Source: Nitrospira sp. (GTDB lineage: Bacteria > Nitrospirota > Nitrospiria > Nitrospirales > UBA8639). From it: 40,068 nucleotides of DNA. A program made the position numbers and the translations under genes. Positions 5,468 to 35,913 of the stretch are shown piece after piece; the stretch's first letter is position 1; each line of letters starts with the position of its first letter. The notes beneath the pieces were generated by a model. That model saw nothing but the letters and a program-made list of their open reading frames with translations. It was not told where the DNA came from and searched no databases. The stretch lies in NCBI GenBank assembly GCA_011523385.1, contig WTGX01000014.1:1-40068 (forward strand). Direction: 5' to 3'.

Positions 5468-6739
5468 GTGATTCGAGGCATTAAAGGCATCAAGGATATT
5501 ACCCCGGACGAAATGCCCAAGTGGAGCGTGGTGGAACGAACCGCGCATGCGTTGGCCCACACTTTCGGCTTTCATGAAATCCGAATCCCTGTTTTTGAGA
5601 GAACGGACCTTTTCGTTCACAGTATCGGGGGCACCACCGATATTGTCGAAAAGGAAATGTATACCTTTCCGGACAAGGATGGAACCTCCCTAACGCTTCG
5701 TCCCGAAGGAACCGCGGGTGTCGTTCGCGCGTTTATCGAACGGGGGCTGAAAACCTACGAGGCTTCGCGAAAACTCTATTACATCGGCCCGATGTTTCGC
5801 CATGAACGCCCTCAGGCCGGACGGTTGCGGCAATTTCACCAGTTCGGAGTGGAATATGTCGGGAGTTCCGAACCGTCCGCCGACGTGGAGGTTGTCACGC
5901 TGCTCTGGAGATATTTTTCAGCGCTTCAGTTGCCAGGCCTCTCGTTGGAACTCAATTCACTGGGCCAACTTGCTGATCGTCAGGCCTACAAAGAGGAATT
6001 GGTTTCCTTTCTGAAAACCAAAGCGGACGGGCTGTGCGAAAATTGCCGGCGACGACTGGCGATCAATCCTCTTCGAGCTTTGGATTGCAAGGTTCCAACG
6101 TGTCATAAAGCCACGAACGATGCTCCTTTTCTGAAGGATTTTCTTTCCACTTCATCCAAAGAACACTTCGATCGAGTTTTGCAGGGTTTACAAGCCTTAG
6201 CTGTTCCGTATTCGCTCAATCCCCGGCTCGTCCGGGGGCTGGATTATTATTCAATGACGACCTTCGAGGTCTCCAGCTCCGTACTCGGAGCTCAAAACGC
6301 GATTGGTGCCGGCGGACGGTACGATGGATTGTTTGAAACGTTGGGCGGCGTCCCCACCCCAGCAGTTGGTTTCGCCATCGGACTTGAGCGGGTCATTTTG
6401 GCTCTTCCCGAATCAGCCCTGCCGGCACCGGACCCATGGGTGTTTGTGGCAGCGTTCGGAGAAAAAGGGAAGCCAGCCGGTGAGGCTCTCATTGATTCCC
6501 TCCGCTCAAATCATATGAAAGCCGATACGGATTATACCTGTTCAACCCTGAAGACTCTCCTACGCTCCGCAGACCGGCTCAACGCGCCCCATGTCGTCAT
6601 CATAGGAGACGATGAAGTCGCGAATAACCACGTCATTCTCAGAAACATGGCAACGAAAGAGCAGGAGATTCATACCTTGGATACCGCCTCATCAGCTATC
6701 CCTAAACGCCTCGGATTCCGCAAACACGTAGAAACATGA
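5468..6739 (+). CDS. hisS: Histidine--tRNA ligase
   Basis: 423 residues, normal for class II HisRS, which charges tRNA-His with histidine using ATP. The N-terminus IRGIKGIKDITPDE is typical. Motif 2 is seen as YYIGPMFRHERPQAGRLRQF, the histidine-specific loops as LVRGLDYYSMTTFEV and GAGGRYDGL, and motif 3 as PAVGFAIGLERV; a C-terminal anticodon-binding domain follows. The GTG start at 5468 is preferred because AAAGGA lies 8 bases upstream and it places the conserved N-terminus correctly. A promoter lies just upstream, and a separate promoter follows its stop, so it appears transcribed alone. Confidence 0.96.
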   Translation: MIRGIKGIKDITPDEMPKWSVVERTAHALAHTFGFHEIRIPVFERTDLFVHSIGGTTDIVEKEMYTFPDKDGTSLTLRPEGTAGVVRAFIERGLKTYEASRKLYYIGPMFRHERPQAGRLRQFHQFGVEYVGSSEPSADVEVVTLLWRYFSALQLPGLSLELNSLGQLADRQAYKEELVSFLKTKADGLCENCRRRLAINPLRALDCKVPTCHKATNDAPFLKDFLSTSSKEHFDRVLQGLQALAVPYSLNPRLVRGLDYYSMTTFEVSSSVLGAQNAIGAGGRYDGLFETLGGVPTPAVGFAIGLERVILALPESALPAPDPWVFVAAFGEKGKPAGEALIDSLRSNHMKADTDYTCSTLKTLLRSADRLNAPHVVIIGDDEVANNHVILRNMATKEQEIHTLDTASSAIPKRLGFRKHVET

Positions 6740-6740
6740 A

Positions 6741-6769
6741 TTGACTTTTTGGCGTGTTGGGAATACGAT
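6741..6769 (+). promoter_or_regulatory. Promoter upstream of the DsrE-like pair
   Basis: TTGACT (6741-6746), a 17-base spacer, TACGAT (6764-6769), immediately after the hisS stop. The predicted start near 6776 leaves a long leader (about 175 bases) before the likely first start codon at 6951; the leader includes a run of eight T at about 6812-6819. Confidence 0.55.
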
Positions 6770-6950
6770 TTTTTCTTTGTTTGTTTATACGTAGTGGTGC
6801 TTAGAATATCATCTCTTTTTTTTAAGCTTTTCTATCTTCATCACCAGAGTCCGTGCCTCATACACAATGGGGCGATCTTCAACTGGTTTTCATCGACGAA
6901 ACCCGGGTTATCGTTCCTTCCACGGCGAGAATCCGTTTGTCTTTTCAATC

Positions 6951-7295
6951 ATGGGCCTTTCGATTCTCGTATTGATTCAGAGCAACCCCCTGGAAACTCA
7001 TCGTCCAACCGAAGGTCTTCGTATCGCGCTCGGTTTATCAACCGGGTCCCCCTCAGTCACGGTTGTTTTGCTTGGACAAGCGAGAATGCTCATCACTGAA
7101 GAAGTAAGTGACGTTGTCGATGCGGAAATTCTCGAACAACATCTCCCCGCGATCCGGGAACTGGGACTGCCTATTGTGCTCCCTGAGGGGAGCAGTGAGG
7201 CTTTTCCCGTCGATACGGATTTTTCCGTTCGAGAGGTTTCACAATCAGGAATTACATCCTTGCTTTGTCAAGCCGACCGGGTCCTGGTGTTTTGA
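6951..7295 (+). CDS. DsrE/TusC-like small protein
   Basis: From the ATG at 6951 the protein is 114 residues: LSILVLIQSNPLETHRPTEG, then a VTVVLLGQAR strand, an Asp/Glu-rich helix region, and a C-terminal CQADRVLVF. This strand-helix layout, with an E-lR-AL helix and a terminal ADRV strand, resembles DsrE-fold proteins, which relay persulfide sulfur (TusBCD, DsrEFH). The conserved relay cysteine of DsrE/TusD is not obvious. The frame extends back to 6867, but the extra 28 residues do not look conserved; neither start has a clear Shine-Dalgarno. It is four bases from the next gene. Function is inferred from fold only. Confidence 0.55.
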   Translation: MGLSILVLIQSNPLETHRPTEGLRIALGLSTGSPSVTVVLLGQARMLITEEVSDVVDAEILEQHLPAIRELGLPIVLPEGSSEAFPVDTDFSVREVSQSGITSLLCQADRVLVF

Positions 7296-7298
7296 ATC

Positions 7299-7550
7299 AT
7301 GAGGAAGGTTCTCTTTCTATTATCTGTCGGGGCAGCATCCTCCATGGAAGACCTTGTTAAGACGTCCGATTTTTCAGATTGTTCAGTCCAAGGGGTTTTC
7401 CTGAAAGAGCGTCGCGAGTCCGGCAAGCCGCTTCCTTTCCCGTGTTATATGCTTGCGTCTACCGAAAAAATGACAGAATCGGCACATCCGTTGATTAATT
7501 ATCCTGACGTATTGAAGATGGTTTTCGAAGCTGAGACTATTATTTCCTGA
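7299..7550 (+). CDS. Small DsrE-like protein
   Basis: 83 residues: an N-terminal strand MRKVLFLLSVGA, a short middle region with one Cys in FPCYMLAS, and a C-terminus YPDVLKMVFEAETIIS that resembles the end of DsrE/TusB-type proteins. It starts three bases after the preceding gene, so the two are probably co-translated. It might be the second half of a two-subunit DsrE-type relay; a third partner (as in TusBCD) is not present. The assignment is tentative. Confidence 0.5.
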   Translation: MRKVLFLLSVGAASSMEDLVKTSDFSDCSVQGVFLKERRESGKPLPFPCYMLASTEKMTESAHPLINYPDVLKMVFEAETIIS

Positions 7551-7794
7551 TTTTTAAAAGAAGAAATTCGTAGGAGCAGGAAGAGGAATAGGGGCTGTGA
7601 ATAAGGTGGTTTTTATATATCTTATTGATTATATTGATAAATAATAAGAAGAAATATATGGAAAAGTAGAGGGATAAGAGGTCAAAGACTTGTGATGAGT
7701 CTTGAAGAAAATGGTTGGCTGGTCGAGTGAAATAGGGTAAACAGAAGAATATTTAAGTTATTAACAAGTGTTAATAAACCTGTGAATAATTATA
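7551..7794. other. Putative replication origin (oriC) upstream of dnaA
   Basis: A 244-base gap just before dnaA with two exact DnaA boxes (TTATTCACA on the minus strand) at 7596-7604 and 7781-7789. An inverted pair of one-mismatch boxes, TTATTAACAagTGTTAATAA, lies at 7758-7777. A strongly AT-rich tract at about 7611-7660 could be the unwinding element. A small hairpin (AAGACT/AGTCTT) lies near 7685-7703. The dnaA-dnaN gap is only 16 bases, so it cannot hold the origin. Identification rests on boxes and position; cumulative GC-skew would test it. Confidence 0.6.
7758..7777. repeat. Palindromic pair of degenerate DnaA boxes
   Basis: TTATTAACA, two bases, then its reverse complement TGTTAATAA. 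Each arm differs from TTATNCACA at one position. It lies 18 bases before the dnaA start and just before an exact DnaA box, so DnaA autoregulation is plausible. Confidence 0.6.
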
Positions 7795-9150
7795 ATGAAA
7801 AAGACTGAGCAACAGATATTGGGCATTTGGAATGAGGCCTTGGGCTTCATCCAAGCGAAAATGGGGGATGAAGTCATAGAAACATGGTTTCAGCCGACAA
7901 AATTGGGCGAACTGAATGGAACGAAAGCGACAATTGTCGTTCCCAATAAGTTTTTCGGGGAATGGCTGGGAAGAAATTATCGAGAGATGATCGGCGAAGC
8001 CTTACAAGCGGTTCGGCCCGGTGAAGAAGGAAAAGTCGACATAGAATTTATTGTCGGTGAGCCTTCATCGCCCGTGGCTGGTGAGGGAGCAGGCAAATTA
8101 CCGGCTGCTCCCCAGCAGACGCGGGTCCATCGCCAACTGCCGAATCCAAAATATACCTTCGAGAATTTTGTGGTCGGGGCCAGTAATCAATTTGCCCACG
8201 CAGCAAGTCTCGCCGTCGCTGAGGCGCCCGCGCGCTCCTATAACCCATTCTTTATCTACGGAGGCGTGGGCTTGGGGAAAACGCACCTCCTCAATTCCAT
8301 CGGGAATTTCGTCATGCAGAAAGGTGAACTGAGGATTGCGTACGTGACGACGGAGCAGTTCACCAATGAAGTCATCAATTCGATCCGATATGACAAGATG
8401 ATGGACCTGCGCCGGCGCTATCGAAACATCGACATGCTCCTGATCGACGATATCCAATTTCTCGCGGGTAAAGAGCGGACGCAGGAAGAATTTTTTCATA
8501 CCTTTAATGCGCTATATGAGGCCAGAAAACAGATCGTTCTATCGAGCGACCGGTTTCCGAAAGAGATGCCGTCGATGGAAGAACGGTTACGCTCACGATT
8601 CGAGTGGGGGCTAATCGCTGACCTGCAACCGCCCGACGTCGAAACCCGGATTGCGATCCTGCGAAAGAAATCAGAGGAAGAAGGTATTGTGATCGGCGAC
8701 GACGTTATTCACCTTCTGGCCGAAGGATTAAAGAGCAATATACGCGAATTGGAAGGTGCGTTGATCCGCCTGGGAGCATACAGCACACTGACCGGCCAGC
8801 CCATTACGATGGATATGGTGAAAACCGTGCTTCGTGATCTGCTGGGAAACAAAAAAAAGGTGATCACCCCGGAAGACGTGCAAGACGTGGTGGCGAAGAG
8901 TTTTCACGTCAAAGTAGCCGAACTCAAATCCAAGCGACGAACCAAAACCGTGGTTCATCCCCGGCAAGTTGCCATGTACCTGTGCAGGGAACTCACGGAC
9001 GCCTCGTTCCCGGAAATCGGACGCGAGTTTGGAGGAAAAGACCACACCACCATCATCCATGCGTGTCGCCAGATAGAAAAAGCCCTTGAGAAAGACCATA
9101 CCTTGCGGGCGACGCTGGACAACCTCAAAGACGAAATCGGAAAGGCATAA
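7795..9150 (+). CDS. dnaA: Chromosomal replication initiator DnaA
   Basis: 451 residues. DnaA binds boxes at the origin, unwinds DNA and loads the helicase. Domain I (about 1-80, with ETWFQPTKL), a short linker, the AAA+ domain with Walker A GGVGLGKTHLL near residue 156 and Walker B LLIDDIQFL near 216, sensor and box VII region (NIRELEGALIRL), and the domain IV DNA-binding helix with GGKDHTTIIHACRQIE near 413. No Shine-Dalgarno precedes the ATG; the start is fixed by the conserved N-terminus. dnaN follows after 16 bases. Confidence 0.97.
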   Translation: MKKTEQQILGIWNEALGFIQAKMGDEVIETWFQPTKLGELNGTKATIVVPNKFFGEWLGRNYREMIGEALQAVRPGEEGKVDIEFIVGEPSSPVAGEGAGKLPAAPQQTRVHRQLPNPKYTFENFVVGASNQFAHAASLAVAEAPARSYNPFFIYGGVGLGKTHLLNSIGNFVMQKGELRIAYVTTEQFTNEVINSIRYDKMMDLRRRYRNIDMLLIDDIQFLAGKERTQEEFFHTFNALYEARKQIVLSSDRFPKEMPSMEERLRSRFEWGLIADLQPPDVETRIAILRKKSEEEGIVIGDDVIHLLAEGLKSNIRELEGALIRLGAYSTLTGQPITMDMVKTVLRDLLGNKKKVITPEDVQDVVAKSFHVKVAELKSKRRTKTVVHPRQVAMYLCRELTDASFPEIGREFGGKDHTTIIHACRQIEKALEKDHTLRATLDNLKDEIGKA

Positions 9151-9166
9151 CAGAAGGGAGTCTCTC

Positions 9167-10309
9167 ATGCGAGTGACGGTGGAACGAGAAGTCCTGTTGA
9201 CGGCCCTCCATCGCGTCCAGGGAATCGTGGAAAAACGAAATACGATGCCCAGCCTGGCGAACGTCCTGCTGGAAGCGAAAAAGGAAGGCCTGGACATTTC
9301 GGCGACGGATTTGGAACTCGGGATGCGGGGGCTCTACAAAGCCGCGGTCGAGGAAACCGGGTCGGTCACGTTCTCCGCCAGAAAGCTCTATGAAATTCTC
9401 AAAGAAATCACGGACCAGGAAATCGCCATGACCGTCACGGAGGATTGCCTGGTTACCATTACGACTGCCCGCGGGGAATTCAAGGTCGTAGGGCTCCCCA
9501 GCAAGGACTTCCCGCCCCTGCCCGCCATTGAGCGGGACGGCCTCATTCCTTTGCCCGGCACAGGCTTATTGCACCTCATTCGGAAAACCCTGTTTGCCGT
9601 CGGGGACAACGATACGCGGTACGTGCTCAATGGATTGTTGATTGTGGTCACGAGTACAGGCGGAACGCCGATGATCCGGTTGGTGGGGACTGACGGGCAT
9701 CGATTGGCGATGGCGGAGCAAAAATTGGAAGGGGAGAAATTGGAAGGGGAGGATAAGGAGTCCGCCGATGCGCAAGAAGAAAAAGTGATCATCCCGAAAA
9801 AGGCTGCGGCTGAAATTCGCCGCCTGCTGGAAGAGGACGAAGATGAGCCGATGATCGGCTTTACCAAGAACATGTTGATCTTCAGAAAAAGCGGGCTGGT
9901 CCTCACGTCCCGGCTGATGGAAGGCAATTACCCCAACTATCAGCAGGTCATTCCCAAGGCGGGCAGCAAACAGGTCGCGGTGAACCGCGATGATCTCGAA
10001 GGGGCCCTGCGACGTGTCTCGGTCCTGTCCCAGAACAAGACCTATGCCGTCAAGCTCACGTTTTCAAAGAAGGCGATCACGCTCTTATCGAGTCATCCGG
10101 ATATGGGAGAAGCGAATGAAGAAATTCCCGCCAGTTTCAACGGCGAGGAATTTTCCGCCGGCTTCAATGCCCGATATCTGCTTGACGTGTTGAGCGTCAT
10201 GGGAAGCGAGACGGTCGTGCTGAATATGGAAGCGTCCCTCAGCCCGTGTTTGATACGAGAGAAGGACAACGCCTTGTTCAAAGCCGTCGTGATGCCCGTC
10301 AAAGTGTAA
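9167..10309 (+). CDS. dnaN: DNA polymerase III beta sliding clamp
   Basis: 380 residues. The ring-shaped clamp tethers the replicative polymerase. The frame opens earlier, but the start is set at 9167 by the AGAAGGGAG Shine-Dalgarno and by the normal N-terminus MRVTVEREVLLTALHRVQGI. The family features FKVVGLPSKDFPPLP, GTDGHRLAMAEQKL and a C-terminal KAVVMPVKV are present. Odd point: between the GHRLA motif and the KVIIPKKAA segment there is a charged insert with the tandem unit KLEGEKLEGE, making the protein slightly longer than most clamps (about 366). The DNA of the insert is itself a short direct repeat. Confidence 0.96.
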   Translation: MRVTVEREVLLTALHRVQGIVEKRNTMPSLANVLLEAKKEGLDISATDLELGMRGLYKAAVEETGSVTFSARKLYEILKEITDQEIAMTVTEDCLVTITTARGEFKVVGLPSKDFPPLPAIERDGLIPLPGTGLLHLIRKTLFAVGDNDTRYVLNGLLIVVTSTGGTPMIRLVGTDGHRLAMAEQKLEGEKLEGEDKESADAQEEKVIIPKKAAAEIRRLLEEDEDEPMIGFTKNMLIFRKSGLVLTSRLMEGNYPNYQQVIPKAGSKQVAVNRDDLEGALRRVSVLSQNKTYAVKLTFSKKAITLLSSHPDMGEANEEIPASFNGEEFSAGFNARYLLDVLSVMGSETVVLNMEASLSPCLIREKDNALFKAVVMPVKV

Positions 10310-29003: not shown

Positions 29004-29012
29004 TAACAGCCA

Positions 29013-30377
29013 TCATAATAGACGCGGATTAGAGTCAAAGGTATCTTTCGCCAGATATTCACGAATCAGTTCTACTGACCAGGGCTCCGCTAGTTTGTTG
29101 TTTCCGACGTCTTTGGCGAGTTGATCGACGGAAGCGAAGCTTCCGCTCAGAGACGTTCCGCGCTTCTCGAAAAACTCGGTTCTACTCAGAACCACCGAAA
29201 CGTCATTTGTAGACGCGCGCCATTCGTACGCGATTCCCACGTGCTTCGAAGTACTCCCGCCGTTGTCGAAATAGACGGCTCCGATCGAGCGCAGGGAGGC
29301 AGGTTCGATCTGAAGTCGTAGCTCTTCTTCGATTTCCCGTACAGCACAACGAGTGAGCGGGTCACCGTTGACGGCATCTTCACATCGAACGTGGCCTCCA
29401 GCCCAAATCACGATCTTGTCATGAAGGATGTTATCAACCGTTTTTTCACGTCGGCGAAGCCGAAGCACCTCACCATCCGCATTTCGAATCACGACGATCG
29501 GAAGGGCCTGAACACGTGATTCATCATTTTCAACCGCATCCCTTGGGCGGAAATTGCTCTCGTGATCTTCACGGAAGTACCGGGCCAGCTTCTCTGCTTG
29601 AGAAGCATCAATGAAATTCTTTTCACCGAAGAATTTCGTTACGACTTTCTTGGAACAGGAAAGGATGTTTTCTTCAAGCTGTGCTTCTATCAAACCGAGA
29701 ATGGCTTCAGCGACAACTTCCGCCGTGCGCTCGGGGTTTTCTTTAGTTTCACCATCAGACGTATTGACTGAAAATATCCGAAAATCTTTCCCAAGCTGAT
29801 CAACGCATTCTTCATTAATCTCCTTAATCTGCTGGAGGATCTCAGAATTCATGATGGATCCACCTGTGCCTTCTACGGGAAGTACCCCTTGTTCGCGCTT
29901 CATCGCATCCGATGGCGAGACAAGCATCACAAAAACGGCCGAGATTCGCTTTTTCCAATCATCAATCAAGAGGAATTTTTGAATAAGTTCTCTTTCGTCA
30001 CGACGGATTCTGGAGATTCGCTCCATCATCGTCATCCAACAAATGGAATCAAAGATGCCTCGATCAAGAAAGAGAATTTGGGGATCATCCGGTCGCGGCG
30101 GGTTTTGTGTTTTTTCCAGGATCTGAGCAAGCGTCGTGCAAGCCGTCCAGATATTGAAATTCGCGTGCTTTTTGTCTCGAATCGGGCAAACTGAAGCACG
30201 TTCAACCACCACGTCGGTCCGAAAACCACAACGCTTGAGAAAAGTCTGCACGTGCGTGAGCGTACTGGTCTTGCCCGCCTTTGGAACGCCCGCGAATTCG
30301 ATGACCAGGGGTTTGCGCGCCTTATCAGCAAATTGTTCCGCTGAGCGTTCAGCACGGATTTGAAGATTTGACTTCAT
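29013..30377 (-). CDS. P-loop nucleoside/nucleotide kinase fused to a Nudix hydrolase domain
   Basis: 454 residues, with GGGGG in the leader 10 bases before ATG 30377. Residues 25-38 contain a Walker A (EFAGVPKAGKTS), followed by a thymidylate-kinase-like ILFLDRGIFDSICW (DRG motif) and a long helical region, so the N-terminal half is a kinase-type P-loop NTPase. The C-terminal half (about 285-450) holds a Nudix domain: WAGGHVRCEDA followed by TRCAVREIEEELRL, matching the Nudix box. The combination suggests action on nucleotides or nucleic-acid ends. It lies next to a restriction-modification locus. Both domains look intact; the exact substrate is unknown. Confidence 0.8.
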   Translation of the reverse strand: MKSNLQIRAERSAEQFADKARKPLVIEFAGVPKAGKTSTLTHVQTFLKRCGFRTDVVVERASVCPIRDKKHANFNIWTACTTLAQILEKTQNPPRPDDPQILFLDRGIFDSICWMTMMERISRIRRDERELIQKFLLIDDWKKRISAVFVMLVSPSDAMKREQGVLPVEGTGGSIMNSEILQQIKEINEECVDQLGKDFRIFSVNTSDGETKENPERTAEVVAEAILGLIEAQLEENILSCSKKVVTKFFGEKNFIDASQAEKLARYFREDHESNFRPRDAVENDESRVQALPIVVIRNADGEVLRLRRREKTVDNILHDKIVIWAGGHVRCEDAVNGDPLTRCAVREIEEELRLQIEPASLRSIGAVYFDNGGSTSKHVGIAYEWRASTNDVSVVLSRTEFFEKRGTSLSGSFASVDQLAKDVGNNKLAEPWSVELIREYLAKDTFDSNPRLL

Positions 30378-30778
30378 GTATGCGTGCCCCCTTTATCCTT
30401 GGCTTCGACGGTGCTTGAATATTTATTGACGAGACCTCTTGCGGACTTGATGAAGCTGATGGCTATCTTTTCATGAAAGGGTTTCTTTGGTTTTTGGGGC
30501 AGGGTAAGTCTACCGTTCGGGAAATTGCGATTCAACCCGACCTCGTCTTAGTGATGACATTGCGGTTAGCGGAGAGTATGGCGTTAATAGATGCCCATTC
30601 CAGTTCTAGGGAAGATTGCCGAACACTAAAGCGTGATTCTATGAAACACCATTACCAATGCTGTTTCCACAGTATGCCCGGTAGACAGGTCTTGAAAAAA
30701 CGTATTATATCCGTATAATACGGATATATAACGTACTAACCGTATATAATACGTACATAAAAAGGAGAGCTAAAAAAT
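30378..30778. other. 401-base divergent intergenic region
   Basis: Between the kinase-Nudix gene and the YfbU gene. I see no gene in 30400-30690; an 81-codon plus frame there has no recognisable features. The last 90 bases are very AT-rich and hold the palindromic promoter described separately. Confidence 0.5.
30692..30753 (+). promoter_or_regulatory. Promoter inside a 21-base perfect palindrome, with flanking inverted repeat
   Basis: TTGAAA (30692-30697), 16-base spacer, TATAAT (30714-30719). The -10 is the centre of a perfect 21-base palindrome at 30707-30727 (arms ATATCCGTAT/ATACGGATAT around one A). CGTATTATAT at 30701-30710 and its reverse complement ATATAATACG at 30744-30753 form a second, wider inverted repeat. 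This is a strong candidate operator for the RHH-containing protein encoded downstream. An AAAGGAGAG Shine-Dalgarno follows before ATG 30779. Confidence 0.75.
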
Positions 30779-31486
30779 ATGCAGCTAAAGACCGAGCGTT
30801 TCGAGATGCGACTTGATTCAAGAACTCTAGAGAGAGTAGACGCTTGGCGCGTATGCCAATCGGACCTTCCGTCGCGGGCAGAGGCAATCCGTCGATTGAT
30901 GGGATCTGGGCTGTCCGAGATGGAGAGGAAGCCGCTCAAGCTAAGCGATGGCGAGAAGCTGATCACATTGATGCTCTGCGAGCTTTACAAGCCTCATAAG
31001 ATCGAGGGCGATATTGATCCGTTATTTGTAAAGGAGGCCTTACTAGGGGGCCACTATTGGGGCTTGAAATGGGAATATCCAAGTATCTTCCATGGACATG
31101 AAGACAATAGTGCAACGGTTCATGAAGTTGTCAATGTACTTGATATGTGGTCCTTCCTCGAAGAATCGTACGCGGTGCTATCAAAGAAGGATAAAGATCA
31201 CATTGCGAAAGAGACCGAACCCTTTGGCAAGCGCATAGTATTTCGGGGATTCGACGGGAACAATGAGACCGAACATTTACTCATCGCCAGATTTCTGATA
31301 GACAAACTGGATCGGTTCACTCGATTCAAAGGCCGTGATCTCAACGTACATACGCCGCGTATTCGCGGTTATCAGCGTATGGTGAAGGTCTTTGAGCCAA
31401 TAAGACCGAACCTTGGTCCCGGTAACTTACTAGGGGCGGAAGCAATTATCAAGATTCTCAATGCCCAACGGAATGATGATGTTTAA
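30779..31486 (+). CDS. YfbU-family protein with N-terminal RHH domain
   Basis: 235 residues. Residues 1-45 (TERFEMRLDSRTLERVDAWR, then SRAEAIRRLM) form a ribbon-helix-helix DNA-binding domain. The rest is a YfbU domain: GGHYWGLKWEYPSIFHGHED, NVLDMWSFLEESY, GFDGNNETEHLLIARFLIDK, LDRFTRFKGRDLNVH. YfbU function is not established. The start is set by the ideal AAAGGAGAG Shine-Dalgarno. The palindromic promoter and RHH domain imply autoregulation. It lies 36 bases upstream of the restriction-modification gene, so it may act as its control protein. Confidence 0.85.
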   Translation: MQLKTERFEMRLDSRTLERVDAWRVCQSDLPSRAEAIRRLMGSGLSEMERKPLKLSDGEKLITLMLCELYKPHKIEGDIDPLFVKEALLGGHYWGLKWEYPSIFHGHEDNSATVHEVVNVLDMWSFLEESYAVLSKKDKDHIAKETEPFGKRIVFRGFDGNNETEHLLIARFLIDKLDRFTRFKGRDLNVHTPRIRGYQRMVKVFEPIRPNLGPGNLLGAEAIIKILNAQRNDDV

Positions 31487-31522
31487 CCTAAAGAAAGCCA
31501 AGCTTGAAACAGGTATAGAAAA

Positions 31523-33808
31523 GTGACAGGACGTCTGAAACGAAACCTCCCCAAATTTATACATCATCCACGGCCTACCTACGTTGCGCAGAACGGCGTG
31601 AAACTGAAACGGGAGGACGGCAAGATATGGAGCAGCGTTCGCGGGAAATGGCTCGTCGAAACACCGGAAGAATTTGTCCGGCAGGAATATCTGCTCGTCC
31701 TGTTTCACGAATACGGCTATTGCCTAGAACAGATCGCCGAAGAAGAGGAAGTCACCGGACGAGGTTCTGGGAAGGCCCGAGCCGACTTTGTTATCTGGCG
31801 TTCCACATCAGACAAAGCGGCACGTAAATCACCGCTCATCATTGTTGAATGCAAAGCCGACAACGTAACGATCCAGTCAGAAAATTACGCTCAAGGAGAT
31901 CGCTACGCCCGGTTGACCAATGCGCCTTTCTTTGTCACCCATAACAACACGGAAACGAAGTTCTGGCATGTCCGCAAAGACCGGATGCCAGGCTACTTAG
32001 AAGAGATAGAGGATATTCCTCACGCAGACGCCACCGATCAGCAGGTTGAAGAGCTTCTCACTCGATTGAAGACCTTCAAAGAAGACGAGTTCGCCAATCT
32101 TCTTCACCAGTGCCACAACGTCATCCGAAATCGGGAGAAGAAAGATCCTGTAGCAGCCTTTGACGAAACCGCCAAAATTTTGTTCGTCAAGGTTTTTGTT
32201 GAACGTGAGTTAAAAAGCCGCCAGCGGCGCAAGAACCTGTTTACCGTCGAGTATCTTGAGGATCAGCTTGGAGATAATCCGCTTGAAGACCTGTTCCAAA
32301 AGACGAAGGAGCATTATCGAACGGACCGCATCTTCGCCGAAGATGAGCGTTTGAACCTGAAGCCTGCAACTGGTATTGAGATTGTGCGGCTTCTCGAACG
32401 CTACAATCTCTCCGACACGAGCGAAGACATCAAGGGCATTGCCTTCGAACGCTTTCTTGGCAAGACCTTCCGTGGCGAAATCGGCCAATTCTTTACGCCG
32501 CGTCCAATCGTCGAGTTCATGGTTCGCATGGTCGATCCCAAAGAGGGGGAAGTTATTTGCGACCCGGCCAGCGGCTCTGGAGGATTCTTGATCCGTTTCT
32601 TCGAGATTGTCCGGGAAAAAATTCTTGCCGATGTGGATCGGCAATATCGAGAGTTCCGCAAGCAAATCGAAAGCAGGAAGCGTATGGCGCAGGAGAAGCA
32701 GGCCGAAGCTCTCCGCACCAAGTACGAGGAACTGCAAAAGACCATTGACAAGGACGTTAGTGACTCACGGCTCTGGAATTTGGCGAATCGCTGCATCTAC
32801 GGCACAGACGCGAATGACCGCATGGCCCGCACTAGCAAGATGAACATGATCATGCATGGTGACGGTCACGGTGGGGTGCATCACCATGACGGCTTTCTGA
32901 ATGTCAACGGCATCTTCGAGGGCCGTTTCGACATCATTTTGACCAATCCGCCATTTGGCTCGAGCGTAGAACCTTCTGATACTATCATTGAAGAGCAGGT
33001 CATGCTCCCCAGCGAACTCGAACGCCACTATGCAGGCATCTACGGTGACCACTACCGTGACGCTCTGAGCCGTGTTCGTGCTGCGAAAGGTAAACCCATA
33101 GCCAGCCTGTTCGAGTTGCCGGCTAATAAAGGGAAACGCAAGGTCGGCAAGATCAAGACCGAACTGCTTTTCATTGAACGTTGCCTTGACCTGTTGAAGG
33201 CTGGCGGGCGTCTCGGCATCGTGCTCCCCGAAGGCGTTTTCAACAATCCTTCCCTGGCCTATGTTCGAGAGTTCTGTGAAGACAGAGCTTTCATCCGAGC
33301 TGTCGTGTCCTTGCCACCCGAGACGTTCGTTTCTTCCGGCGCGTCAGTAAAGGCGTCGCTTCTCTTCATGCAGAAGTTTACCAAAGAAGAACAATCCGAC
33401 TTCGACGCAAAGAAGGTTGCCGCCAAACAGGATATCCGCGATAAGTACGCCCCCGAGATTGCCAAGAGAACCGGGGAACTCGAAGCGGCCATTGCCCAGG
33501 CCAAGAAAGACAAGAACGTAGTCCAGCGCAAAGTCCTGCAAGACGAATTGAAGCGGTATCAGCGCGACATTGAAGCAAAGATGCGAGCCGAAGCTCGCTC
33601 CCTGCTCAAATCCCGTTTCCTCTATGCGGTCTTTCTCTACGAAGCCGAGCATGTCGGCATCACCGCTACCGGCGAAACCGACCGCGTACCAAACGAGCTT
33701 TTCTCCGGCAACCACATTCCGGAAGGCATGGAGAAGACCACACTGGAGCTTTATCGGGAGTTTCGGGCAACCCCCAAATTCTTTCTAGCGGTGGCGCCGC
33801 CTGCATGA
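31523..33808 (+). CDS. Fused restriction nuclease-N6-adenine methyltransferase (BcgI-like / type I-like)
   Basis: 761 residues, GTG start. Residues about 50-115 hold an HsdR-N-type PD-(D/E)XK nuclease: Asp88 (ARADFVIW) and Glu109-x-Lys111 (LIIVECKADN). A helical region follows, then the HsdM-like methyltransferase: GQFFTPRPIVEFMVRM, SAM-binding DPASGSGGFLIRFFE near residue 347, and the catalytic NPPF at 475-478. A coiled-coil Lys/Glu segment lies near residues 630-690. No helicase/translocase domain is present. A specificity gene overlaps its end (ATGA). This layout resembles BcgI-type IIB enzymes, where one polypeptide cuts and methylates and a separate S subunit gives specificity. Confidence 0.85.
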   Translation: MTGRLKRNLPKFIHHPRPTYVAQNGVKLKREDGKIWSSVRGKWLVETPEEFVRQEYLLVLFHEYGYCLEQIAEEEEVTGRGSGKARADFVIWRSTSDKAARKSPLIIVECKADNVTIQSENYAQGDRYARLTNAPFFVTHNNTETKFWHVRKDRMPGYLEEIEDIPHADATDQQVEELLTRLKTFKEDEFANLLHQCHNVIRNREKKDPVAAFDETAKILFVKVFVERELKSRQRRKNLFTVEYLEDQLGDNPLEDLFQKTKEHYRTDRIFAEDERLNLKPATGIEIVRLLERYNLSDTSEDIKGIAFERFLGKTFRGEIGQFFTPRPIVEFMVRMVDPKEGEVICDPASGSGGFLIRFFEIVREKILADVDRQYREFRKQIESRKRMAQEKQAEALRTKYEELQKTIDKDVSDSRLWNLANRCIYGTDANDRMARTSKMNMIMHGDGHGGVHHHDGFLNVNGIFEGRFDIILTNPPFGSSVEPSDTIIEEQVMLPSELERHYAGIYGDHYRDALSRVRAAKGKPIASLFELPANKGKRKVGKIKTELLFIERCLDLLKAGGRLGIVLPEGVFNNPSLAYVREFCEDRAFIRAVVSLPPETFVSSGASVKASLLFMQKFTKEEQSDFDAKKVAAKQDIRDKYAPEIAKRTGELEAAIAQAKKDKNVVQRKVLQDELKRYQRDIEAKMRAEARSLLKSRFLYAVFLYEAEHVGITATGETDRVPNELFSGNHIPEGMEKTTLELYREFRATPKFFLAVAPPA

Positions 33809-35136
33809 TTGCACCGACAACAGGAAAAGCTTTCGCCGTTCTGTTTGAAGACCTCAAAAGATGGAGTGTCAATTCTTTCTTCACCACCCAGTGGAAGTGG
33901 CCCTCGGACTTGATTAAACCCCTTACTTCTGGGCTCGAACGGAAGTCAGTAGCCATCGAAAAGATGAGGATTGATCCTAAAGACATTACTCTTGTTTCGC
34001 TCCATTTCGATGGAGAGATGGAACCTCGGGAGGACAGCATTGCTGGTTTCAAGGGTCGCCTATTCCTTGCGGAACCAGGCGACGTCATTTACTCCAAGAT
34101 TGACGTTCGACACGGAGCCATTGGCGTTGTCTCGGACACGCTTCCTCGCATCGCTGTCAGTAGTGAGTTTCCCGTTTACCGCGTACGATCCGAGGTTGCA
34201 CTTCCGCGTTACGTGAAGCTCCTGTTTCAGACGGACGCCTTTCGCCGCCAGATTAATGCCCTAATCAGTGGCACAAGCGGGAGAAAGCGGGTACAGCCTT
34301 CCGATTTGGAAGAAGTTGAAGTCCCGCTTCCGCACCCTGACATTCAACGCACGATTGTGGACTTCTGGCATGAAGCCATAACCGCCGTTGAATCCGCACA
34401 GCAAAAGCTCGCCCAGCCTGTCAACGCCTTGAATGTGCGCTTACTTGAACTCTATCGCAGAGAGTCTTCTCGAGACGTGATTCATTCCCGTTTCTTCGCC
34501 CTTGACTTCAAGGATTTGGCAGCATGGGACGTAAAATCTGGCCGAGCCTCTGCGTTTCGTCTGACGTGTCCATCCTTCCGACCGCTGGGGGATTTTATTG
34601 AAGAAGCAACCGATCTTGTCCGGCCTTTCGACAAACCAGAAAAGAACTGGCCCGTCTATGGGGTAAACAACAAGGAAGGCGTTTTCCTGAACGGGCACCA
34701 GAAGGGTAAGAGCTTCAAGGCAGCCTATAAACGTATCCGCAAAGACTGGTTTTTCCACAATCCAACACGCTGTAACGTCGGTTCGCTTGGGATTGTTCCT
34801 GACGTTCATGGAGATGCCATTACCAGTCCCGAGTATCAAGTCTGGCGCGTGAAGGAGGATGCACGAAGCCCTATACTCCCTGGCTTCCTCGCGGTCCTCA
34901 TTCAGACGTCCTTCTTCATTGACCTGATTCAGTTCAATCGCGTCGGTGCCGTTAAGCAGCGTATGTATACGGAAAATCTTTGCCAGCTTCGGATTCCCTA
35001 CCTTCCCGAATCCGAGCAACGGACATACGCCCAAGCCCGAGAAGAGGCCCTTGCTGACCTCACTTCTGCGAGAGACCGTCTCGCTCAAGCCCGCAAGGAA
35101 GTTGAAGATATGATTCTTGGGATCAAGAAAGTCTAA
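33805..35136 (+). CDS. HsdS-like specificity subunit
   Basis: 443 residues, ATG overlapping the stop of the nuclease-methyltransferase gene. Two target-recognition regions are visible: one with KIDVRHGAIGVVSDTLPRIA and SGTSGRKRVQPSDLEEVEVP, the other with RKDWFFHNPTRCNVGSLGIV and FNRVGAVKQRMYTENLCQLR; each is followed by a helix (VDFWHEAITAVESAQQKL and AREEALADLTSARDRLAQA) of the HsdS spacer type. It should direct the enzyme to a bipartite sequence. Both halves look intact. Confidence 0.88.
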   Translation: MIAPTTGKAFAVLFEDLKRWSVNSFFTTQWKWPSDLIKPLTSGLERKSVAIEKMRIDPKDITLVSLHFDGEMEPREDSIAGFKGRLFLAEPGDVIYSKIDVRHGAIGVVSDTLPRIAVSSEFPVYRVRSEVALPRYVKLLFQTDAFRRQINALISGTSGRKRVQPSDLEEVEVPLPHPDIQRTIVDFWHEAITAVESAQQKLAQPVNALNVRLLELYRRESSRDVIHSRFFALDFKDLAAWDVKSGRASAFRLTCPSFRPLGDFIEEATDLVRPFDKPEKNWPVYGVNNKEGVFLNGHQKGKSFKAAYKRIRKDWFFHNPTRCNVGSLGIVPDVHGDAITSPEYQVWRVKEDARSPILPGFLAVLIQTSFFIDLIQFNRVGAVKQRMYTENLCQLRIPYLPESEQRTYAQAREEALADLTSARDRLAQARKEVEDMILGIKKV

Positions 35137-35160
35137 GTTTGAATTTGGGCATGATATTTA

Positions 35161-35676
35161 ATGATGAAACAGATAGCACTCATTGGTACTAGCCATAAAT
35201 ACCAGAAGGAAGATAAAGACTGCTCGAAGCAAGATGTGCAAGCCTTTAAAGATTTTCTTGAGAAGGCCTGTCGTGTCTACAACATTCGAACCGTGGCCGA
35301 GGAAATGAGCGAGCAAGCCTTAGAAGAAGCGCATCGCAATAATTCGATTCCACAACAAGCAGCAAAGGCTTTATCTCTCAAGCATCTTTTCTGTGATCCT
35401 GACGGAGAACGGCGCGCGCTCCTTGGAATAGAGTATGAAACTGCAATTGATGTGGAGGTGTTCTTTGATCGCGTATCCTGCGATGAAGCTAAACGACGAA
35501 AATGCGAATCACGGACGAAGCGTGAGCTTTACTGGCTTGAACGTCTACAAACGGTACCCGAATCCGAATGGCCCGTTCTATTCATTTGCGGGGCCGACCA
35601 CGTTAAGAGCTTTAAAGGAATTCTCGAAGACAATGGATTCAGCGTAGAAACCATCGCAGACGATTGGTCACCTTGA
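35161..35676 (+). CDS. Hypothetical protein of accessory locus (171 aa)
   Basis: I have seen this kind of protein in accessory regions but know no function. The N-terminus MKQIALIGTSHKYQ, IRTVAEEMSEQALEE, a middle LKHLFCDPDGERRALLGIEY, and the end WPVLFICGADHVKSFKGILE are arranged like strand-His/helix units; the GTSH and GADH motifs are possible metal or catalytic sites and recall TraB/ChaN-type folds, but that is only a guess. It lies 24 bases after the specificity gene on the same strand and so may belong to that locus. Confidence 0.7.
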   Translation: MMKQIALIGTSHKYQKEDKDCSKQDVQAFKDFLEKACRVYNIRTVAEEMSEQALEEAHRNNSIPQQAAKALSLKHLFCDPDGERRALLGIEYETAIDVEVFFDRVSCDEAKRRKCESRTKRELYWLERLQTVPESEWPVLFICGADHVKSFKGILEDNGFSVETIADDWSP

Positions 35677-35749
35677 ATTCCAATAGCACATAAGTCAAGA
35701 AAGTGAAGAAGCGAAACTCAAGCTGAAAAACCATCACAATCCTGATTTC

Positions 35750-35779
35750 TTGACAGGATATGAGAGGCTCCTCTAGCAT
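35750..35779 (+). promoter_or_regulatory. Promoter of tRNA-Val
   Basis: TTGACA (35750-35755), 18-base spacer, TAGCAT (35774-35779). Predicted start about eight bases before the mature tRNA. Confidence 0.65.
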
Positions 35780-35793
35780 ATTTTGTTTGTGAT

Positions 35794-35868
35794 AGGCGCG
35801 TAGCTCAGGGGGAGAGCGCTACCTTGACACGGTAGAGGTCGGCGGTTCAATACCGCCCGCGCCTACCA
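35794..35868 (+). tRNA. tRNA-Val (anticodon GAC)
   Basis: A complete cloverleaf of 75 bases including encoded CCA: acceptor AGGCGCG/CGCGCCT, D stem GCTC/GAGC, anticodon stem CTACC/GGTAG with loop TTGACAC (anticodon GAC), variable AGGTC, T arm GGCGG-TTCAATA-CCGCC. It decodes GUC/GUU valine codons. The first pair is A-U. thrS begins 45 bases downstream, so read-through transcription is possible. Confidence 0.95.
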
Positions 35869-35913
35869 CCTTCTTCCTCCGGGGGAAGGCAGATAACGGG
35901 AGATTTCAGGCGT

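Follow-up and report, generated by a model that had tools for sequence, protein, structure and literature searches.

A putative type IIB restriction-modification system downstream of an RHH-YfbU gene with a conserved CGTA operator in Nitrospira sp.

The C proteins of type II restriction-modification (RM) systems are helix-turn-helix activator-repressors, small autoregulators encoded upstream with operator repeats at their own promoters. Ribbon-helix-helix (RHH) repressors, such as Omega, PaaR, NikR and the CopG/ParD antitoxins, also combine an RHH head with operator repeats over their own promoter, and Omega and PaaR provide a precedent for autorepression (PMC3874152). The YfbU domain fold is known from E. 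coli YfbU (PDB 1wpb, 4lr3), a protein with no RHH head. Among restriction enzymes, the type IIB archetype BcgI (PMC3874165) pairs a fused RM chain with a specificity subunit (S) and has no HsdR translocase and needs no separate methyltransferase, and BsaXI (PDB 8w0p, 8w2p, 8w2q; PMC11997821) likewise consists of an RM fusion and a separate S with two target recognition domains (TRDs). Here we describe a locus in Nitrospira sp. in which several of these elements are brought together: a gene encoding an RHH head fused to a YfbU domain, with an operator-like palindrome at its promoter, lies directly before an RM fusion, a two-TRD S and a small gene here called GTSH. The window analysed was the whole of contig WTGX01000014.1 (40,068 nucleotides; contig C17 of the 2.5 Mb genome G000). 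We consider it likely that a type IIB RM has been placed by chance under the promoter of an autoregulated, mobile RHH-YfbU gene. A literature search found no paper on RHH-YfbU proteins and none on an RHH controller of an RM.

The RHH-YfbU gene is preceded by a sigma-70-like promoter that matches the consensus at 11 of 12 positions. In a scan of positions 30400-35900 no other promoter-like site was seen ahead of RM on that strand, the interval between RHH-YfbU and RM included. The -10 element lies inside a perfect palindrome, TATATCCGTATAATACGGATATA, as the first-pass annotation had noticed, although its length is 23 bp and not 21. No other palindrome in the 40 kb has arms of at least 10, none appeared in 30 simulated windows, and the probability of one in 130 bp of the local composition is 7.5e-4. 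The palindrome lies within seven CGTA/TACG half-sites that form the densest such cluster in the 40-kb window. Its core, CCGTANNNTACGG, is found in two places in the whole genome; the sole other copy, at G000 C38:136878-136890 (locus L174), is a possible second target of RHH-YfbU.

The half-sites recur upstream of related genes. Across 22 RHH-YfbU genes from Alpha-, Beta- and Gammaproteobacteria, Acidobacteria-type bins, plasmids and phage contigs, CGTA/TACG sites occurred upstream at 4.45 per 100 bp, compared to 0.36 for 59 headless YfbU genes and 0.37 at random positions in the same loci. At least four sites were present in 73% of the RHH-YfbU promoters and in 0% of the headless ones; headless YfbU genes, the kind found in E. 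coli, are thus without the operator. Once proteins at least 65% identical had been removed, CGTA stood out as the tetramer with the highest enrichment in RHH-YfbU promoters (76 observed vs 14 expected) and was found in 17 of 17 of them. Same-strand CGTA spacings cluster near 11, 20 and 31 bp, so that the sites would lie on the same side of the helix. Five CGTA sites precede the gene of a Microvirga protein that shares the head but has a different C-terminus in place of YfbU. On these sequence comparisons the operator goes with the RHH head and not with the YfbU domain.

In the window protein, the head has helices predicted at residues 14-25 and 33-45 and a recognition strand R7-F8-E9-M10-R11. 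A Pfam scan of this protein alone scores nothing for the head, and RHH_1 is matched in 10 of 19 members of the RHH-YfbU family. The closest solved structures to the head are those of NikR, at an E of only 0.027; from the RHH repressors in general the protein differs by its fusion to YfbU and its CGTA operator. The YfbU domain itself is matched by Pfam at E 1.2e-17, and its predicted fold superposes on E. coli YfbU with a Z of 14.1 over 111 residues.

When the head alone was used as a query, 122 viral relatives were found, of which most are solitary and about 50 residues long. Among 70 distinct viral relatives, three or more CGTA sites were found with 16 of the 19 that carry the strand R[FL]E[ML]R, as against 2 of the 51 others (P 5e-11). 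Heads with F-Q-[MV]-R have a mean of 0.06 CGTA sites and show TGTA palindromes such as ATGTAATTACAT instead; their excess of TGTA over the Glu class is weaker (P 0.014). Both P values overstate independence because the sequences have common ancestry. No other evidence speaks as strongly as this covariation for a reading of the operator by the RHH strand, and residue E9 is predicted from it to read the C of CGTA. It is very probable that RHH-YfbU binds the palindrome at its own promoter, and comparative support for autoregulation is strong; we infer autorepression because the operator overlaps the -10 and because of the RHH precedent in Omega and PaaR. Contigs L175-L254 represent in their own right a large phage family of solitary RHH proteins of about 50 residues, in which a CGTA or TGTA operator tracks Glu or Gln.

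The enzyme encoded downstream combines two Pfam domains, HSDR_N_2 (2.5e-24) and N6_Mtase (1.1e-34). Its nuclease residues E74, D88, E109 and K111 and its methyltransferase motif IV (NPPF) are invariant in an alignment of 11 RM relatives, and motif I (DPASGSGG) is conserved. In BsaXI, mutation of E73, D90, E105 or K107 kills cleavage (PMC11997821), and these four N-terminal PD-(D/E)xK residues have their counterparts in E74, D88, E109 and K111; the correspondence is drawn by motif because automatic alignment of the nuclease domain is weak. BsaXI is the top match in the PDB by sequence (1.3e-28), and a Foldseek search with the RM model gave BsaXI at 7.6e-20 over 851 alignment columns. VIA-align superposed 562 residues of the model (range 25-730, Z 16.4) on BsaXI with the nuclease part included; other methyltransferases reach a similar or higher Z, mostly from RM residue 180 onward only. 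The helical connector and gamma-type methyltransferase are common to both enzymes, and the model's long helical hairpin (residues 621-698) resembles the antiparallel double-helix paddle of BsaXI. BsaXI differs in length (916 vs 761 amino acids) and in a knob domain that is not resolved in the RM model, and identity is about 20-25%.

The two halves of S form an internal repeat (E 9e-10), which indicates two TRDs, and S profiles also match; S lies directly behind the RM gene in most relatives of the fused enzyme. No hsdR adjoins RM-S. Six HsdR loci are present elsewhere in the genome, each with its own HsdM nearby, so there is no orphan HsdR calling for this M and S. The nuclease-methyltransferase fusion overlapping a two-TRD S with no HsdR, as described in the first-pass annotation, was thus confirmed by profiles, by the 4-bp overlap and by the internal repeat, and a search for an hsdR elsewhere that would complete a classical type I system found none without an HsdM of its own. 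These data support RM-S as a type IIB-like system of the BcgI/BsaXI kind, with putative cleavage activity. The BcgI-like label given earlier holds in this sense: BsaXI is best by sequence and fold, and the likeness to BcgI drawn here is one of gene organisation. According to the BsaXI authors, the predicted BcgI restriction endonuclease does not superpose on its relatives (PMC11997821).

Two further nuclease-methyltransferase fusions with a possible S behind them are encoded in the same genome, on C28 (L040:5836-9155) and C3 (L045, reverse, 5825-9570), the latter with counterparts in the siblings G006 and G009. Related RM-S pairs are also found in temperate phage contigs (L143-L150), several beside apparent terminase and portal genes, which is an unusual location for an RM. 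In three other loci (L140:7294-10657, L151:7403-10916 and L048:8289-11356) RM-S is followed by a PtuA-like ATPase with overlaps of a few bases; L140 and L151 have a PtuB-like HNH protein too, a Septu-like pair coupled to a type IIB-like RM-S.

The first-pass annotation proposed that YfbU may act like a C-protein for this RM. A dedicated controller that delays restriction on entry into a new host would fit several features of the locus. RM starts 36 bp downstream of RHH-YfbU on the same strand with no promoter-like site between, the operator is conserved, the sibling G012 keeps the gene order as a remnant, and small XRE genes stand in the equivalent position, directly before RM, in two distant relatives (L048 and L151). 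Linkage, however, is not what such a role would require. Of 22 further RHH-YfbU loci, 19 of which extend 2 kb or more downstream, none has an RM, S, HsdM or HsdR homologue nearby, and most of these genes are solitary. Nor does RHH-YfbU accompany any of 20 relatives of the fused enzyme, which come from plasmids (4), genomes (2) and viral sequences (14) and some of whose loci are short upstream. Other RM relatives have a Schlafen AlbA_2 protein (L131) or XRE and PIN-domain proteins (L130) as upstream neighbours. Absence of linkage, which the annotation itself had named as evidence against its proposal, is therefore what is seen outside one genus. The protein also departs from C proteins in having RHH and YfbU instead of helix-turn-helix, and R is no separate gene: since R and M share a single chain, their relative timing is beyond the reach of transcription, which could set only the total level, and the proposed delay of restriction is impossible. 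In G012 the same island occupies the same site with RM (92% amino acid identity), S and GTSH intact; a resident DNA methyltransferase gene replaces the first 92 RHH-YfbU codons together with promoter and operator, and a 17-nt deletion frameshifts what remains. The third codon position takes a share of 0.70 of the changes against G012 in RM, 0.66 in S, 0.44 in the YfbU remnant and 0.43 in GTSH. The evidence for YfbU decay is the truncation and frameshift and not this ratio, because intact GTSH gives a similar one. G012 keeps its RM without the supposed controller, which argues against an essential role, and a dedicated controller appears improbable to us. Nor do we find support for the related suggestion that the four genes form one functional unit. 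A defence or addiction unit with GTSH and YfbU as effectors beside RM could draw on the order kept in two species of one genus, on relatives whose S is immediately followed by other effectors, such as PtuA-PtuB, and on a report of E. coli yfbU as a mazEF 'death gene' under DNA damage (PMC2646832), a report that also calls for a small correction to the earlier statement that YfbU has no established role. Linkage is nevertheless absent outside the genus, GTSH homologues elsewhere do not adjoin RM-S, YfbU is degraded in the sibling, and the divergence between the two species is far greater in YfbU and GTSH than in RM and S; the odds of such a unit seem to us equally poor.

A different reading of the RM-S pair would make it a methylation module of the MADS/BREX kind, with MAD2- and MAD5-like proteins and an inactive nuclease fold. 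The top NCBIfam models are indeed MAD2 for RM (NF047738, 5.8e-85) and MAD5 for S (NF047740, 4.6e-12), but their bit scores fall far under the curated cut-offs (286 vs 720 and 45.5 vs 400), on which MADS membership was rejected. No mad3, mad4 or mad6-8 genes were seen among the neighbouring open reading frames (ORFs), the PD-(D/E)xK residues are invariant and no structure matches RM over its full length better than that of BsaXI; MAD2 and MAD5 are better regarded as distant homologues, and a methylation-only module is unlikely. The palindrome could also be a weak minus-strand transcription terminator and no operator, given its 10-pair stem and the T run that comes after it on that strand. The stem has just 3 G-C pairs, though, the CGTA sites reach well past it and recur in unrelated RHH-YfbU promoters, and the operator covaries with the RHH strand, leaving a terminator with very little probability. 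More speculatively, RHH-YfbU would be a member of a large class of mobile phage and plasmid proteins that have RHH heads with a simple strand code, F-E-M-R reading CGTA and F-Q-M-R reading TGTA, in which the YfbU domain serves here as a sensor of stress or infection that releases the head and induces the type IIB RM on demand; taken as a whole, we think this combination doubtful. Some observations do weigh against the chance placement that we prefer. The order YfbU-RM-S-GTSH is common to G012, albeit as a remnant there, and the genes stay together within the genus; RMs such as those in L048 and L151 may be regulated by the XRE genes ahead of them; the YfbU domain may act in ways these tests cannot detect; and the AlphaFold models are just moderate, with predicted local distance difference test values of 68 and 75. 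The arrangement of RHH-YfbU and RM is a local accident or a recent one, with a remnant in one sibling.

Under chance placement, the predicted enzyme is an (RM)2S complex of RM with the two-TRD S, which would methylate a bipartite sequence and, with no need for ATP, cleave the DNA on either side of it. The RHH head would bind the CGTA half-site cluster over its own -10 and repress the promoter. RM-S is probably transcribed by read-through from this promoter and, since no other promoter-like site precedes RM, may be under RHH-YfbU feedback, which would cap RM-S levels in this genome. RHH-YfbU would then be a stand-alone, autoregulated, mobile cargo gene and no dedicated RM controller.

The locus adjoins tRNA-Val in a variable insertion site, and after the GTSH ORF the gene order continues with tRNA-Val and then thrS. 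Two siblings have just 193 and 240 bp between a Fis-type gene and thrS/tRNA-Val, an empty site; elsewhere among the siblings this gap measures 2.6-9.6 kb, and the difference identifies the site as variable. In several siblings it is occupied by an Eco29kI-type RM (PF09517, 3.1e-60). An AAA-like ATPase fused to a NUDIX domain is encoded in the same island; sibling G008 has this gene at the same site without the RM genes, and the AAA-NUDIX protein is not part of the RM unit. Two overlapping minus-strand genes at the contig end (39252-39880) resemble what we take to be a DUF5615 (PIN-like)/DUF433 toxin-antitoxin pair.

The small GTSH/GADH protein that the first-pass annotation placed behind S is present as an ORF. 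Its conserved positions are G9, AEE46-48, R121 and CGA(D/N)H at 143-147. The GxxH, E and GxxH motifs of TraB/TIKI proteins are largely conserved, and Pfam TraB scores 0.0079 in one family member and 0.18 in the window protein, below cut-off; motifs and weak matches together hint at a TraB/TIKI-like protein. A GTSH profile found no match in the PDB. Homologues are few and mostly solitary, none was found in the viral scan or in phages, and they stand beside RM-S in G012 only. GTSH would be a separate accessory gene, and its membership in an RM unit is not supported. A GTSH-like match beside a type I system on C6 proved to be a chance one, within what looks like a uvrB gene, and was discarded. 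At L155 (G005 C33, 6348-7816) a GTSH gene is broken up by what looks like an insertion, its two pieces lying about 1 kb from each other. Coordinates of all features are collected in Table 1.

Table 1. Features of the RHH-YfbU and RM-S locus; positions refer to the 40,068-nt window.
Feature	Position	Strand	Description
Variable insertion site	29004-35735		adjoins tRNA-Val
AAA-NUDIX protein (AAA-like ATPase fused to NUDIX domain)	29013..30377	-	same island as RM genes
Sigma-70-like promoter	30692..30719	+	-35 TTGAAA 30692-30697, 16-nt spacer, -10 TATAAT 30714-30719
Putative operator, seven CGTA/TACG half-sites	30701..30755	.	at 30701, 30712, 30719, 30732, 30741, 30750, 30752
Perfect 23-bp palindrome TATATCCGTATAATACGGATATA	30706..30728	.	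holds the -10
RHH-YfbU gene	30779..31486	+	235 aa; RHH head residues 1-48, YfbU domain 110-229
RM fusion	31523..33808	+	761 aa, GTG start; PD-(D/E)xK nuclease, helical connector, gamma-type N6-adenine methyltransferase, helical hairpin
Specificity subunit S	33805..35136	+	443 aa, two TRDs; 4-bp overlap with RM
GTSH/GADH protein	35161..35676	+	171 aa; possible TraB/TIKI-like; neighbour of RM-S
tRNA-Val(GAC)	35794..35868	+	right border of variable insertion site

For the type IIB enzymes, which are sparsely characterised, the RM described here is an ordinary but well-formed addition, distant in sequence from BsaXI. The locus also illustrates that, where a gene neighbourhood suggests a function, a natural deletion in a sibling species can serve to check the suggestion. 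The more useful by-product is the conserved CGTA operator together with a rule that turns on one residue of the RHH strand, Glu or Gln, in a mobile family of proteins with RHH heads. For YfbU proteins, a poorly understood family, it offers a first definite molecular function, open to test, when they are fused to an RHH head.

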